Assembly: GCA_028622995.1 (NCBI GenBank) | Contig: JAJQJQ010000026.1 | Location: forward strand, 310,001 to 374,000 | DNA length: 64,000 nt | Direction: 5' to 3' | Source of the DNA: Panagrolaimus kolymaensis | Lineage: Eukaryota > Nematoda > Chromadorea > Rhabditida > Panagrolaimidae | Shown: positions 27,012 to 35,800 of the stretch, piece by piece | Layout: each line of letters opens with the position of its first letter | How positions within the stretch are numbered: the stretch's first letter is position 1 | Notes under the pieces: generated by a model | The model's database searches: none | What the model was told of the DNA's origin: nothing | What the model saw: only the letters and a program-made list of their open reading frames with translations | Translations under genes and position numbers: made by a program

Positions 27012-27227
27012 TATTTAGGATTGCAATTTGCAATAATAAAAATGAAGGCATCAAGTCTTTTTCAATTTTTCAAAATACTCAACAAAGACCTTCGAAGATA
27101 TTTTATCCTTGGATTGTTTAAACAGCAGCTTTCATTCCTAATAAAATTTAACTATTTATAGTTAACGATGCTAAGTAGCTCAACTATTTTTCTAGCATTC
27201 TTATTACTTGGGATAAAATAAACTTAC

Positions 27228-27312
27228 AATATCCAATATCGCCATAAATGTGGTTGCATTGTAGATGATTCATTATAATTCGCAAACCATTGGCTTCTAA
27301 TTTTTTAATCAT
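27228..27312 (-). pseudogene. Unidentified coding-like exon fragment
   Basis: On the minus strand an ATG opens 28 codons (MIKKLEANGLRIIMNHLQ, then Cys/His-containing residues) ending at a GTAAGT donor. The composition is unlike the surrounding A/T-rich sequence. No downstream or upstream partner exon was found, and I cannot name the family. It may be an exon relic. Confidence 0.25.
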
Positions 27313-27741
27313 TTGTTTTATCAAAAAAAATCGCTCAATTCATCTGTTATTTTATCATACTTATCTTTAACATTCATTTTAATAAAAATTAAAAAAATAT
27401 TGAAGCAATAGATGAGTCAAATTTTAGAAAATTTGGCTTTTTTCAATAATAAAATATATTAGAGCAAGTTTGTTTTATTATTTAATTCAGTAACAACACA
27501 AAAAAAAGTTATGGTTTCCAATGAAATGAAACAAAAAAATTAGATATCAAAGAAATAAATGAGGTCATGAAAAAAATCGATCGATTAACTCATAATATTT
27601 ATGCCATGTATGTTTGTAATCATTTACAACGATTTTCTTTATCGTGCTGTCCCGTTCTTATAGTTAAAATTGATAAAAGGTTTATATATTTTTGGCATTT
27701 TATAAGAAATTGTAAAATTTTTTATAATAAAAAAATTATTT

Positions 27742-29050
27742 TCATGCTAGCTTTTTACAAATAAATTGAAGACTATTATCGCAAGGAATATTAGAAAGTT
27801 TTCCACTAAAAATCAGTGCACAGCTACCATTTATTGAATTATGTTGATTGCTTAACCATGGAAGATAATCAATTGGGTTTCCATCAGACCATTTCCATGT
27901 GAGGTAATCATCTGAATAAAGTCCAATCAATTCTTGATCCTCGCCTCGTATAATGCCAAAAGCTAAAAATAAAATATGCACATTTTAGTATTATATTTAA
28001 AAAAGGAAGGAAACTTGCATGAAATAAATTTAGCTTCTTCAAAGCTATGAATGGATGGTAAATGGCCCTTCAAAGATTTACAAATTTCTTCGGCAGAAGT
28101 CCAATTTAGTCTTCCATAATTTTTATCAATACCATAACAAGATAATGTTGATGGAAAATAAAACCAACCATATGCACATGTTGGTGGTGGAGAAGCTGAT
28201 ACCTTGCAAACATATGGTTTTTTATTAAAGCAATCATCAGTCAACCACCTTCCATTGTTTATCGTCAATGCCGCGCAATAATTTGAAGTAACATTTTCAC
28301 TCTCTGGGATTGCTATTATTTCATTAAAATCGAAAGTTGAATTATCTGTCCAACTCCAATCTCCTGGCGTCGTTAAATTATTTAAGCCTATCCAAAATTC
28401 AGTTATTGTACTGTCATTAAAATATGTTGGAGCTTCGGCTAAAAAAAATATTTCTATTTTTATTATTTTCTTTAATTCTTAATTCTTGGATTTAGGGATT
28501 ACTTGTAAGCAGCGCTGGCGGTTTACCGAAATCCTTCGGTTTTCGGTTTCGGTTAACCGAACCGAAACCGAAGCTTATCGGTTTTCGGTTTTTCGGTTTA
28601 AATCGAAAACCGAAATCCTCGATTTTCGGTTTTTCGGTTTATAAAATTTTTCGGTTTTCGGTTCGGTTTGAAATTCAAAATCGTTATTTTTTGGGATAAA
28701 ATATTAGGTATTGCTTAAATAATGCCTTTTTATGCATTATTAGCATGTTTGCTAACACTTTGGATAACAACTAGATACATTTTTCTATGAAAAGCGAATT
28801 CGGTTTTTTCGGTTCGAATCGGTGCACCGAACCGAAACCGAAGTTTCTCGGTTTTCGGTTTATCGGTTTGAACCGAAAACCGTGATACTTCGGTTTTCGA
28901 TTTTCGGTTCGGTTCGGTTCACCGAAAACCGAACCGAAAATGCACCGAAAACCGAACCGAAAAACCGAAAACCGCCAGCGCTGCTTGTAAGCAAAGCATT
29001 AACAAATCCATCATGAATCGAAACCAAATGGCCTGATAGCGAATTAAAAG
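27742..29050 (-). pseudogene. C-type lectin-domain gene, 5'-truncated and interrupted by a hAT-like element
   Basis: Exons recognised: 28985-29050 (GHLVSIHDGFVNALL, the usual end of the first CTLD helix region), 28019-28438 and 27742-27962. Domain 1 continues with FWIGLNN, WSWTD, NYCAALT and CFNKKPYVCKV. Domain 2 runs from CAYGWFYFPSTLSCYG to FICKKLA-stop, with IGLYSDDYLTWKWSDGNP and CALIFSGKLSNIPCDN. The intron between the last two exons has a GC-AG donor (GCAAGT at 28013-28018). The element at 28510-28983 sits on the first exon-intron junction. No signal peptide or start of domain 1 fits in the 468 bp before the next gene, so the locus is probably dead. Confidence 0.75.
28510..28983. mobile_element. 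hAT-like non-autonomous element built of CGGTTTTCGG repeats
   Basis: Perfect 8-bp target duplication CTTGTAAG at 28502-28509 and 28984-28991. Terminal inverted repeats CAGCGCTGGCGGTTT match exactly. The flanks inside are dense arrays of TTCGGTTTTCGG-type units in one orientation on the left and the opposite on the right, around a plain A/T core at about 28675-28795. No coding capacity. It is inserted on the 5' splice junction of the lectin gene. Confidence 0.9.
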
Positions 29051-29518
29051 CTTTTTAAAAAATGAATGATTTGATTTCATTAAGGTACAAGTGTTAAAAT
29101 TTTAAGAATGTTTCTGGAATTATGCATTAAGTGTATTTAATTTATATAACTTTTTGATACTTTTTTTTAGGAATTTAGATGCTTTAAAAGCTTTAAACTA
29201 CAAATTGTGTAATAAAACCTATAAAATCGAAATAAAAACACTGATCTTATTTTAAAAACAAACTAACATCCAATAATAATCGATACATTTTTCAAGAAAA
29301 ACCTAAAAGTCCATATTGTAATGCATATACGCAGCATATGAAAAAATTTGGTTCTTGCAACGAATACAGACTGTAGTTTTACAATCAAAAAAGAAAATTT
29401 CATTCATTCTTTTTTAAACTTTCATTGCTCTTTTTTCTACGTCGTTTTTCAACATTATCATCGAAATTAATTTTCGTGCATTTATAACTTTCATATTTTA
29501 GCTTATTTCTCGTTCATA

Positions 29519-31950
29519 ATGTCGTCTAATCAAGCATCAGCTGGTAATATCAATGTGAGTTTATATTTTTTGGTTAATTTTTTCGCAACATTTTTAAATA
29601 TAATTTTTTAGGATATTCAGAGATCATCTTCTCCAACACGGGATGATATTGCAAAAACTTTTGATCTAATGTTAGATGGAGAAGAATGTATCAAAGCTTA
29701 TAAATACAAGGAAGCAATAGAAAAGCTTACTCAAGCGATTGCATTGTATCCTCGTCCTCTTTTCTTTTGTAGACGTGCTGATATGTATTGCATTCTTAAA
29801 CAATATGATAATGCGATCAAGGTAGGCTTTATTTTTATAATATTAAAACCTTGTGTATTTGTCTTTTAGGATTGTCGTACAGCTATTGAACTTGATCCGA
29901 AATTTGATAATGCTTATCGTGTTCTTGGTTGGGCATTTAGCGCTCTCAAACGTTATGATGAAGCAATTGAAGCTTTCAAGAAAGCCCTTGAACTTGATCC
30001 TGGAAATGAAGATACTCGAGTCGGTCTTGCTCATGTTGAAGAAAGTCTTAAAATTGTAAATTTTCATTCATTCATTTCAATTTTTTCACCAAGTATTTAG
30101 ATCGAACAAAAATCTTCGCCTCCAACATCTGAAGCAATTTCAAAAGCTAATGATCTGAAAGAAGAAGGAAATGAACTTATGAAAGCCTCCATGTTTAATG
30201 AAGCAATCGAAAAATACACTCAAGCCATTGCATTGAAAAGTGATCCTGTCTATTATTGTAATCGTGCCGCTGCTTTTTGCCGTCTTAATAAATATGGCGA
30301 AGCTCAAAATGTGAGTATTTTTTGTATTGTATTTCTTATAATATGCAAAATATTTTAGGATTGCCATGCTGCTCTTTCACTTGATGCAAATTATGCTAAG
30401 GCTCACACTGAAAAAAAAAGTAGCGATTTTTCATTGACTAAGTCAGATTCTGGAAAAATGGTAGTGGATGAAGCTCCAATTTGGAGACAATTCCTAGGGG
30501 GCGATCTCCAAATTACACCATTTTGTAGACATTCTGTATTTTTTTGTTCAAAACTAGTATTGAATGAAAAATAATGCCTTTTTTTTCAAAATTCACTCCT
30601 ATTTTTGGGCAAATTTTTTTTCAGTCAAAGTTCAATGTTTTTCTTTTAACTATTTTTGATGAGGAAATACTCGAATCGCGATGAATGTTTTATTTGCGGG
30701 ACGTATTTGCGGGAAACATAATCCAAGGGTTCTATTTTTATTTTTTGCTATTAGTTGTGTTAAATTTAAAAAGATAGATTTTAGCCGGAAGATTAAAGTT
30801 TATGTAAAAAATCTTGTCCATTGCGCTCAGAGGTATTACAAGAAGCATAGACCATTATTTAAATAAATGTGTTCTTCTTCTCTATGTTTGAAAGATCGAG
30901 GTACTCATTAAAATGCAAATTAATTGGTTGCGATCAGCTTTATTCAAATAAAATAAAGAATTAATAAAACGATCCAGCGCAATCAAAAAAAATGTTCTGC
31001 GCCGTCTTTTTTTAAAAAAACGATCTAGCGCTTTCATTTTTTTTACGTATGAAAACGAAAAAAAGTCGAGCGGTCGCATTTTTTTCAAAGCGCTAGACCA
31101 GTCATTTCTTTGGCCGTCTGCCACCCATTTTCACTTCATTATCGCTTTCTTTCCTTTACCTTTTAAGAATTTATGCGATGTTTAACCAAAGTATTATTCA
31201 TTGATATCTTCGGATACCTTGATAGCTAATTGATATTCTTTATTGAAATCAAATAAATAGCAAATAAATATGCAAATCTTTGGTTTACCAGTATTTGCGT
31301 AACCATCCAAGGCTTCGGGTGCGGCCAAGCTTTGGTTAGTTATGCGAACCAGAAGTAACCATTGAGATGCATAGCTATGCATTTGGTGACGTTCAATGAA
31401 TTCAAAACATTAGCTAATGCATATATTTGGTTGCATCCAATATTTGCTATAAAATAAATTCCAAGCTCGAAAACTGGGATAATTCTTAATTTTTGGTATA
31501 AAGGCTATCTTGATAGTCTTCTAACAGTAATATGAAGTTTCAAAATCAATATCTAATAACCTTTGTTAATACAAAAAACTTCTCTCGCAATCAAAAAATT
31601 CGTCACCTTTTTCGTATTTAATTGTCTCCATTTTGTAGATATTTCGTCTCCTAAAATGGATACAAATACATACCCAGAAAGAGACAATAGTATGTGTATC
31701 AAATCGCGAAATCGGTTCCTTTAGGTATCGGGATTAGTAGCGGAATTGTGCTATATTTTGTTGACTAATTCGCTACCTTTTTTTTTCAGTGCATGCTCGA
31801 ATGGGTTTCATGTTTTCATGTTTAGGTATTTACTTCTATTCTGCTAATGCGTATAAAAATGCTCTTGAATTGGATCCAACAAATGAAAGTTACAAAGAAA
31901 ACCTTGCTCTTGCTCAAGCTAAAATTCGTGAAGCTAATCACCAATCATAA
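29519..31950 (+). CDS. sgt-1: SGT-like tetratricopeptide-repeat co-chaperone, with an element-derived intron
   Basis: Exons 29519-29554, 29612-29821, 29870-30055, 30101-30310, 30359-30419, 31790-31950 (287 aa). Two TPR blocks are seen: one over residues 20-135 (YKEAIEKLTQAIAL; YDEAIEAFKKALELDP), the second starting SKANDLKEEGNELMKASMF and ending YKNALELDPTNESYKENLAL. The second resembles the carboxylate-clamp TPR of SGT/STI1, which binds Hsp70/Hsp90 C-termini. The SGTA N-terminal dimer domain is absent. The last TPR is split by a 1.4 kb element at 30406-31791. Splicing with the element's own sites gives the in-frame join KAH-TEKKMH-ARMGF, and the helix spacing then matches human SGTA after RMG. 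Confidence 0.85.
30406..31791. mobile_element. CACTG-terminated element forming an intron of the TPR gene
   Basis: The left end reads CACTG, nine A, GTAGCGA; the right end is the inverse, TCGCTACC, nine T, CAGTG (one G more than the left). A 2-bp CA duplication flanks it (30404-30405, 31792-31793). CACTG/CACTA termini with 2-3 bp duplications fit the CACTA-Mirage-Chapaev group. Inside are an inverted GGAGACAATT pair (30483-30492 and 31620-31629) and short inverted units around 30965-31105, but no transposase. The left terminus supplies a GTAGCG splice donor at 30420, the right a T9-CAG acceptor ending at 31789. Confidence 0.8.
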
Positions 31951-32889
31951 AATCTAATGGCTGTGTTTGAGTCTCTTTTGTATTCCATTGTTTTTTTAAA
32001 CTTTTATTTTATGTTTCTGTTGTTGATTTGAGTATTCTTTTTTTTTGTCAATTTATCATGTTTTTTCTTGTTGCTGCTTTGAACCTTTTTTGGTTGAATT
32101 TTTTGTTTGAAAATAAAGTTTTACTGTTTGTTTTTATTATGTTTAATAAGTCTTTATCACTATCTCTTTATCCTAACTTTTTAACAAATTTTTGTTCCAC
32201 CATCTAACAGCGGTACGATAAATACCTCAAAAATTATGGTTGTAAGTAGTAGGCATGGCTGAGAGCCCACTTTTTTGTGCTTTAGCGCTCGATCACCCAA
32301 GCCCGGTCTTCATCCATTTTTTATTTTTCAAATTTATAAGTAAATTTTTTGTAGCCCTATATTAGATCGCTTTGGTTAATAAATTTTATAAAATTGTAAA
32401 ATTATAAAATGAATCACTACCAAAAACAACAACAAGATTTAACAACTAATAATGATTTTTCTTGTCCTCCCCCGCAGTTATACACTTTTTTCTTTTTTTA
32501 AATTTCTTAAATTTAGAGAAAGATAAAAGTATGCCTGCCACCTGTTTTTGTGTGTTCTCCAAAAAAAGTTGTTCAACTTTTTTTTGAGAGACTCTTTCTA
32601 ATCTTTTTTTTTCTTTGCTATTTGCCGTTGGGCTTGACTTATATGATCGCTCATTTGCTTGCTGCTTGTTGGTATAATATGTGCGTCGTTATCCATGCAA
32701 GTAAGTGAAAATGAATGAATGGTTGCTGTTGTTCTTTGACTTGAAAGTTAAATTGCTTTTAAATTGAGTGGATTGGCATTTTTGTTTCTATTGTTTTTTA
32801 TTCTTTAAATTTGCTAGAAAAAAACATTTCGTTGTTTGGTTTTATAGCATTTTTTGGAGTGTTTTTATTATTAAACCTTAGCTGCTGCA
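31951..32889. other. Intergenic region
   Basis: 3' flank of the TPR gene (AATAAA at about 32112) and upstream region of the repeat-protein gene. No exon or repeat seen. Confidence 0.45.
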
Positions 32890-35800
32890 ATGAGTTATGA
32901 TACATGGAGGTAAGAAATTTGATATATCATATTAATAAATGTTTATCGATCATAAAATCGAGCACTTTACTTTTTAAAACATTTTTTTGTTAACAACAAA
33001 TAAAAAAAAATTCTTTCAAATAAGTGATTAATAAAATGGTTTATTAATGGCAAATTTTTGTTTTGTAGATCAAAAAATAATTACGGTGAAAATTATGAAA
33101 AATCATCATCCGTTGGTGGTAGCATAGAAATTTCTCCCATTGAAGTTGGTACTCGTTCTATTTCATCCGATGGTGGAGGAACTCCCACTCAACAACGCCG
33201 AAGTGTGCAATTTTCTGATAAAGTTCAAAGATTTCCTGAATCTGCACCAACATCACCAAAACCCTTGGATACTCCAACCACACCAAAAGATGTCGTAAAT
33301 AAAACTCCATTGGGTATTGCATCAGAAAGTTTAAACCAACAACAACAAACTGGTGCTAATGATAATGCTGAAAAGAAAGTTGAGATTCCTATTGAAAAAA
33401 TTTCTGATTTCAAAGAAGAATCAAAAAATAGTAAACCACAAATTGATTCATTTATTGATGTAAAAATGGAAAAACGAAATGATCCGGATCTTGTTATTGA
33501 ATTTAATTCACCCCTTTCAAACTCTTCCTCTAATTTTAATTCCTCCCAACAACAACAAGAAAAAATTAGTGATTATAAACAAAATCAAGAGCAAAATCAA
33601 AATAATTTTAAACCATCACCAACAACAGCTGACACTTCTTATTCTTCTTCCCATGCAGCAGCATCAATTGAACAACAACAACAACCCCCGCATCATCATG
33701 TCAAAAATGAAAATGTGAATGATAACAGCAATTTCAATGGAAATTATAATGATAAACCATTTGTAACTACAGTAATTTTAAACGTTGAAATGGTTAGAAC
33801 TCCAAAAGAAACTGATCCTGAAGATGATTGGGATACAGATTTGGTAAAAGTTTCATTTTCAACTGGTGCAAGTTTTGGTGAAGCCCAAGAAACTGAAATA
33901 ACAAAAAATAACGCCGACCAACAAAGTTCAAAAAATATTGTTGAATCGATTGCACCCTCAACTATCCCTGTCAATGAGGCCAAAACTTCCCCAGATGAAA
34001 AGCCACCAAGATCTCCACAATTTGGTCAATCTAAAGAAGGCCTTAATGCCATTGACTTAACACCATTATTAAATACCGCACCCGCTACTGATATTGCTGT
34101 TATCAATGCAGGACTTAATCGAACTCCATCTATTACTGACGATTTTCCAGCCGAAGAAAACAACAAGTCAGCACAACAAGCTTCAGAACAAACTACTGAA
34201 AATGATAAAACAAAGCCCCAAAGTGATGGTAATAAAAATTCCATTGAAATTCCAATTCAATTTGAAGGTCAACCTCCAGTTTCTCTTGCTGACCTTTCTT
34301 TGCCAAAATATGGAACGGAGAAAGTTGTAGAAATTCCAATTATTTTTGATGATTCTTCAAAAGACAAATCTGAATCAACAAATGCTGAACTTCAATTTGG
34401 TGTCATCCCTCAAAAAGCCATAGAAATTCCAATTCAGTTTCATGAAGATAAACCTGTAACTCCCGTCGATATTCCATTATCTGAATTTGGAAGTCCTGGA
34501 GAATCAAAAGTTGAAATAGCTATTATTTTTGAATCAGATTCAAAACCTAATGAAGTAGAAAAAGAAAAAAGTGGTGGTATTGAAAAAGGAATAATTGAAA
34601 TTCCCATTCAATTTGAAAATGGACCAACAGTCGCAAAGGTTGATGTTCCTCTTTCTCAATATGGTACACCACCTTTGACTCAACAAGAAATTCCTATTAT
34701 TATTGCTGAGATTAAAGAAGCTAGTGGTGATTCAGGAGAAGCAGATAAAAATGATAATAAAATTAATGTAGTTGAAATTCCTATTCATTTTGAAGGTCAA
34801 GAAGCTCCAGCAACTCCTTTCAAAGATAAAGAAATTTCACCAGCTCCTGAAACTTCAACAGAAATTCCAATTTTTTTTGAAAATCAAAAAGATGGAAAGG
34901 AATCATCGAATGAAAAACCTCAGGAAAATACTGGTATTGAAATTCCCATTCAATTTGATGGCCAACCTACTGTAGCGAAAGTGTATATTCCTTTATCGAA
35001 ATATGGAACAGCTCCAGAAACTAAAATTGAAGTGCCAATTATTTTTGGTGAAAATAATGATACTAAAACAAATGTCGAAGGCGGGGATGAAGGTGAATAT
35101 ACGGAAATTTCTGTTATTCAATTTGGAAGCGGTGCTTCACAAAAAGCGAGCGACACTTCTGCCGAAGCTAATGAAGCTAAAACATATGCCTCAGATGATT
35201 TATCAAAGCAGGCAGAAGCTTTTGAAAATGAACAAACTGGAAAAGAGGAAGGAAAGAAGGAAACGCAAACAGCAACTTCAGATTATGCTTCCAATAAACT
35301 CCAAAGCCATGGTATTGAAATTCCAATTCAACATGAAGGCCAACCAGAAGTTCAAAAGGTTGATATTCCTTTATCGCAATTTGGAACTCCAGCTGAAACA
35401 AAACAAGAAATATCTATTGTTTTTGAAAGGCCAAAAGATGACCAAAAAACAAGCGACAATAATGAAAAAGACTTATTCGGTTTACTTCAAAATAAATTGA
35501 TTGAGATTCCAATTCAATTTGAAGATGGCGCACCGGTTTCAAAAATTGATGTTCCATTGTCTGAATTTGGCTTTCCCGCTGAAACTTTAAAAGAAATTCC
35601 CATAAAAATGGAAAAAGATGCTGGAGATGAAAATAAGGATAAGGCTGAAAAAAGCGGACAATTTGGAACATTGTCATTTAAATTAATTGAAATTCCTATT
35701 CAACACGAAGGTCAGCCAGAAGTTAAAAAAGTGGATATTCCTCTCTCTGAATTTGGAACTCCATCAGAATCTCTTACAGAAATTGCAATTATTTTTGAAG

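Follow-up and report, generated by a model that had tools for sequence, protein, structure and literature searches.

The TPR Gene and Its Interrupted Last Exon

The window, i.e., the whole 64,000-nucleotide stretch of Panagrolaimus kolymaensis DNA analyzed here, carries on its plus strand a TPR gene, the last exon of which (exon 5) is interrupted by a transposable element. Alignment with paralogues predicts exon 1, with the ATG at 29519, at 29519–29554, exon 2 at 29612–29821, exon 3 at 29870–30055, and exon 4 at 30101–30310, all on the plus strand. Exon 5 starts to the left of the insertion (30359–30405) and continues to the right of it through the stop codon (31794–31950). The introns of the gene are 45–57 nt long. 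An earlier note on this DNA had placed the element inside the last TPR of an otherwise intact gene, and this was indeed the case: elsewhere, the window copy is open, with no other stop codon or frameshift.

The insertion is a CACTA-like, non-autonomous DNA transposon of 1,386 bp (30406–31791), recognized from its sequence and its matches in the genome. Its left terminal inverted repeat, CACTG-A9-GTAGCG, lies on the plus strand (30406–30425); the right one (31771–31791) reads CACTG-A9-GGTAGCG on the minus strand. A 2-bp target duplication, CA, flanks the element on the left (30404–30405) and on the right (31792–31793). Each plus-strand end holds a candidate splice site (here and below, a slash marks the exon boundary or the insertion point): a weak 5′ site, AAA/GTAGCG, at 30420–30425 and a 3′ site, CCT9CAG/, at 31776–31789, fair among all AGs and low among the acceptors of the gene family. 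All these elements of the earlier description were confirmed, including the extent of the insertion, both termini, the CA duplication, the GT at 30420, and the AG ending at 31789. Copies of about 1.45 kb on contigs C29 and C54 were 83% and 82% identical to the window element.

The inner part of the element (31087–31583) was 88–89% identical to sequences on contigs C23, C45, and C10, and no such termini were found at these three matches. The inner element also matched part of C49 (83% over 248 bp) beside a small ORF, the product of which looks secreted. The stretch 31087–31583 is possibly a captured sequence or another repeat. An Rfam search of the window gave no match. In both the minimum-energy and the centroid RNA folds, the two ends of the element are predicted to pair; such pairing could unite the splice sites, mask them, or form a substrate for SOS splicing.

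Without the element, the gene encodes 281 aa. Removal of 30420–31789 (1,370 nt) leaves 18 extra bases in frame and without a stop codon (KAH-TEKKMH-ARMGF), giving an ORF of 287 aa; the arithmetic of the earlier note was right on this point. The unspliced frame (285 aa) runs into a stop codon inside the element, after ...VLNEK, and a foreign tail replaces most of the last TPR. The Pfam TPR_1 score was 106.7 bits for the element-free protein, 107.7 for the spliced one, and 98.7 for the unspliced one; the first two values do not tell whether the six extra codons harm the fold. Among solved structures, those of the RPAP3 and SGTA TPR domains match the C-terminal half of the protein. A PDB search with another ORF of the window, 1,513 aa in length, gave no match.

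The TPR family is large: 48 matches were found, with 40 of the 112 candidates scored, so that its size is a lower bound and further copies may exist beyond those scored. The gene is greatly expanded and forms clusters on contigs C25, C37, and C33, which are homeologous. In the family alignment, 24 of the 39 other rows, including the homeolog on C37, are open from ATG to stop in the exon columns of the window copy. On the branch of the window copy, the polarized changes comprised 28 nonsynonymous versus 7 synonymous ones, and on that of the C37 homeolog 38 versus 11; a further 12 nonsynonymous and 7 synonymous changes between the two remained unpolarized. Comparison of the two copies by NG86 gave a dN of 0.127, a dS of 0.159, and a dN/dS of 0.80, versus 0.115, 0.251, and 0.46 by YN00; because of this difference, constraint on the gene is described as weak or unclear rather than absent. 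The gene does not evidently require removal of the element. With so many gene copies, the survival of the insertion therefore says little about splicing.

Element Family and Its Classification

The genome-wide search with the terminal repeat, proposed in the earlier note as a check, was carried out on 265,843,910 bases in 807 contigs. The exact terminus occurred 16 times at 11 loci in these 265.8 Mb; the reversed-pattern control occurred 0 times. Chance is thereby ruled out, and the family has a low copy number. When up to three mismatches were allowed, the number of matches (253) was that of the background (274 in the control). The copy numbers obtained by DNA search are lower bounds, and a few degenerate or partial copies are to be added. 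Both ends were identified in ten copies: six by a fixed pattern, with a perfect duplication in 6/6, and four after visual identification of the second end. A 2-bp duplication was present in all ten (TA in six, CA in three, and TT in one). For the C6 copy and two C11 copies, one end was located in the stretches fetched. A terminus match with one mismatch at C8:2511271 had no right end within the 820 bases fetched and is probably due to chance. Two pairs of inverted copies lie 70–100 kb apart (C5:1289400/C5:1389674 and C11:4507646/C11:4577957); the flanks of the C5 pair match by eye, as do the bases adjoining the C11 pair, a pattern that points to segmental duplication in inverted orientation.

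The genomic context of the copies was judged by eye and by whether frames stay open when the flanks are joined, a procedure independent of protein search and annotation. Only one of the ten two-ended copies, that of the window, lies in a recognizable coding exon, which speaks against the generality implied by the earlier note. Three copies, two on C5 and one on C12, look intronic, being located between donor- and acceptor-like sequences, and the two on C5 are probably one duplicated insertion. The C29 copy lies just upstream of an ATG, and the frame is also open for 43 codons before the junction; a coding position is possible for it. The context of the remaining two-ended copies was non-coding or unclear. 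An introner family would have several copies at coding introns, and the single coding-exon copy among ten does not fit this. A large introner family was ruled out by the total of 16 exact ends at 11 loci.

The copy on C1 is 9,159 bp long, has a CA duplication (L029:619-9777, G000:C1:1314318-1323476), and contains an ORF of 402 aa with the following motifs, in order: D15, D111, CxxC (128–131), HxxxH (333–337), and E357, where the acidic residues were assigned by eye. A cruder form of this pattern (GD, CxxC within 60, HxxxH, E) was matched by 6 of 2000 shuffles. Several further ORFs were present on both strands of this copy; one, of 313 aa, looks K/E-rich. A Pfam search of seven ORFs of the C1 copy (E ≤ 1) returned no transposase family, with one irrelevant hit below the cut-off; the superfamily assignment therefore rests on the order of motifs, the termini, and the length of the duplication. 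The order D-D-CxxC-HxxxH-E is given for EnSpm, Mirage, Chapaev, Transib, Plavaka, and ESTA (PMC12730594), and the same source ascribes to the CMCT clade mostly 5′-CA..TG-3′ termini and a target duplication of 2–5 bp. Our family has CACTG..CAGTG ends and a 2-bp duplication in 10/10 copies. Provisionally, the element is thus CACTA-like and would belong to the CMCT clade (EnSpm/CACTA, Mirage, Chapaev, Transib, Plavaka, ESTA), among whose members the motifs of the 402-aa ORF cannot discriminate.

CACTA/EnSpm in the narrow sense has CACTA ends and a 3-bp duplication, as in a soybean element (PMC2613891); the ends of our element are CACTG and its duplication is 2 bp, which places it outside this definition. 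Tc1/mariner elements duplicate strictly TA. This group was ruled out by the CA duplication in three of the ten copies and the TT duplication in one. A literature search of titles and beginnings of abstracts, general in scope rather than directed at Panagrolaimus transposons, returned no description of this transposon family.

Age of the Insertion

Panagrolaimus kolymaensis is reported to be triploid (PMC10374039). Three homeologous contigs were found for the locus, with the insertion in only one of them. The homeolog on C37 (L036, G000:C37:1478106-1479002) is continuous through the site (CTCA/TGCT). This contig is syntenic with the window to the left and to the right of the gene (27744–33217, in pieces 84–97% identical); two further pieces of lower identity (81% and 67%) represent cross-matches elsewhere. 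We reached the third homeolog, that on C33, via the downstream flank (93% identity); the two halves of exon 5 adjoin there, overlapping by the two duplicated bases, and the element is absent.

The site was also uninterrupted in 34/34 fetched loci of the family, a number that includes the C37 homeolog (43 spanning alignments, none with more than 12 gap positions; overlapping loci are in some cases counted twice). Four alignment rows that do not span the junction were excluded from this count. Since the element is absent from both other homeologs and from all fetched paralogue loci, it is younger than the split of the homeologs. An ancient intron at this site, named in the earlier note as an observation that would speak against its reading, was ruled out on the same grounds. 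A close sibling, which would allow finer dating, was not encountered: identity to the element is 82–87% for the other long copies and reaches 92% or more in short stretches.

The homeologs differ from the window copy elsewhere as well. In the C37 homeolog, intron 3 has TT where the aligned donor should start with GT, and this copy may splice the intron differently. In the C33 homeolog (L070, G000:C33:1727400-1732400), other sequence has replaced the missing 5′ portion of the TPR gene; exon 5 is joined there to sequence matching 27028–27606 of the window.

Strength of the Candidate Splice Sites

The candidate sites were scored with matrices based on the paralogues. Because these derive from four homologous intron sites, with T at −1 in 84% of donors, a second measure, the number of matches to the U1 consensus, was added. 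Five paralogue rows and the introns lacking GT and AG at the corresponding alignment position were excluded from the splice-site sets. The donor AAA/GTAGCG scored 0.0 bits. Each of the 36 distinct family donors scored higher, and 47% of the GTs in the window scored at least as high. It matches the U1 consensus at 4/9 positions, a value reached by 61% of window GTs. The 36 family donors match at 5–8 of 9 positions and eight donors of other window genes at 4–7; both sets are small, and the latter eight were hand-picked by eye with knowledge of usual donors. As for the donor proposed at 30420 in the earlier note, the GT is there and its context is weak. Some features of this context do occur in other donors: the related donor AAG/GTAGGC is found in intron 2 of the TPR gene itself, A at −1 is common among the eight donors of other genes, and one of the 44 compared donors likewise lacks A at +4, G at +5, and T at +6.

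The acceptor ending at 31789 scored 5.3 bits and belongs to the top 3.6% of window AGs, scoring at least as high as 96% of them. Among the 82 distinct family acceptors, it falls below 81, with only one scoring as low; the C at −3 is rare in this set, where TTTTTAG dominates. Three AGs (31825, 31167, and 31638) scored better than the candidate. The word "ideal", which the earlier note had applied to this acceptor, is an overstatement, as is "donor" for the GT.

In the nine copies compared, the A-run ends in a GTA in 15 of the 18 combinations of end and direction, and CAG/TG follows a T-rich run in 18/18, with the run interrupted in the C51 copy. Read in reverse, the right terminus of the window element gives AAG/GTAGCG, which matches the U1 consensus at 5/9 positions. 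The earlier proposal that one terminus serves as a donor in one direction and as an acceptor in the other is supported as regards the presence of both dinucleotides; at the window copy, the donor is weak and the acceptor low for the family. The frame would be kept, i.e., the bases left are a multiple of three, in only 10 of the 15 GTA-bearing combinations; the "any insertion" of the earlier note thus does not hold for the frame. Taken alone, the sequence leans against efficient use of the candidate donor.

Origin and Fate of the Insertion

We consider it probable that the element is an ordinary CACTA-like insertion in exon 5 of one of the three homeologs, tolerated owing to redundancy, with ends shaped by transposition. 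A non-autonomous transposon would have inserted into a redundant, fast-evolving copy of the TPR gene and duplicated CA. Tolerance of the insertion probably stems from the uninterrupted copy at the syntenic position and from the dozens of paralogues. The ends would look like splice sites because transposition requires CACTG plus the A-tract: ends of the form CACT(G/A)...(C/T)AGTG automatically place (C/T)AG two bases from the right end, and the A-tract in reverse is a T-tract. They would thus be kept for transposition and not for splicing. The main message would be truncated inside the element or partly repaired by its inefficient removal from RNA, and the element is possibly removed to some extent. 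Against this explanation counts the fact that the frame is otherwise intact and the remnant in frame, as a working intron would also give. The high rank of the acceptor among window AGs, the dN/dS values, which are compatible with some constraint, and the lack of a Pfam match for the C1 ORFs count against it as well.

That the spliceosome removes 30420–31789 via the terminal GT and the T9-CAG, leaving six codons, and that the element is hence an intron, is possible, though on the unlikely side. The GT and AG are in place, the frame is kept without a stop codon, the acceptor stands high among window AGs, and the similarity to the donor of intron 2, the common A at −1, and the single other donor without +4A, +5G, and +6T point in the same direction. 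The low rank of both sites against those of the family, the many window GTs that do as well as the donor by either measure, and the three higher-scoring AGs in 31167–31825 argue against it, as do the length of 1,370 nt versus 45–57 nt for the introns of the gene and the predicted fold, in which both sites lie inside the stem of paired ends. A broader reading extends this to the whole animal CACTA-like family: its 20-bp terminus would act as a donor one way and as a polypyrimidine-CAG acceptor the other, insertions would be removed from mRNA in both orientations, and the window copy would be a newborn intron present in a single homeolog of the three. We regard this as unlikely; if true, exonic insertions would be near-neutral.

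Splicing might instead employ other cryptic sites within the element or next to it, yielding altered proteins, as reported for Tc1 in C. elegans. GTs scoring better than the candidate exist at 31690, 31335, and 31047, along with the better AGs listed above; the three GTs are, however, all downstream of the stop codon of the unspliced frame, and this outcome seems quite improbable. Equally hard to favor is SOS splicing, in which the stem of paired ends would be excised and the mRNA religated by RTCB without the spliceosome. The signal for this process is the paired ends of the transposon, and the predicted fold pairs both ends here, in a stem of about 20 pairs with a bulge, which may or may not suffice. 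The pathway has been described in animals (PMC13247085). A search for CAAP1 (PF15335) found no match in this genome, nor in 14 control genomes, and is hence uninformative. As to an assembly artefact, the presence of the insertion in only one of three homeologous contigs would fit it; the perfect 2-bp duplication, the full termini, and the same anatomy in other copies make such an origin extremely improbable.

Relation to Known Systems and Significance

The claim that the principle is undescribed was too strong, as the termini of En/Spm and the introners of Aureococcus are precedents. Menssen et al. in 1990 reportedly described splice sites in the termini of maize En/Spm, forming a novel intron. 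In En/Spm, an AG lies two bases from the right end. Our element resembles maize En/Spm and dSpm in its CACTA-type ends, this position of the AG, and its insertion into a gene, and resembles En/Spm in having GT and AG (candidates here) within the termini. It differs in its nematode host, in CACTG instead of CACTA, in the 2-bp duplication, and in that splicing is here only predicted.

In Aureococcus, introners bring both splice sites with them and leave 12 additional bp (Gozashti et al. 2022, PMC9860276, Figure 2F); introner families have from 5 to >2,000 copies per genome (PMC9860276). The likeness to our element consists in both candidate splice sites being on the element and in the extra codons predicted in the message; unlike the introners, our family has one recognizable coding-exon copy and is known from DNA alone. 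In C. elegans, Tc1 is said to be spliced from mutant pre-mRNAs via cryptic sites (Rushforth and Anderson, 1996). Tc1 is likewise a nematode DNA transposon; in contrast to the window element, it belongs to Tc1/mariner and its removal has RNA evidence, whereas removal from pre-mRNA is here only a candidate process. The primary paper on SOS splicing is said to be that of Zhao et al. 2026. The window element shares with SOS-splicing substrates that it is an animal DNA transposon in an mRNA with ends able, by prediction, to pair; that process is non-spliceosomal and, for this locus, only a candidate.

According to a review, a transposon may harbor a strong donor and acceptor near its boundaries (PMC3443670), and a study of intron gain in nematodes discusses the failure to identify the sources of gained introns (PMC9169325). 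If the predicted junction is absent from RNA, the locus would be a clean case of transposon ends mimicking splice sites and a caution for intron calls made from sequence only. If the junction is real in RNA, the element would be a young transposon-made intron in an animal, for which the three homeologs in one nucleus would provide a built-in presence/absence control.
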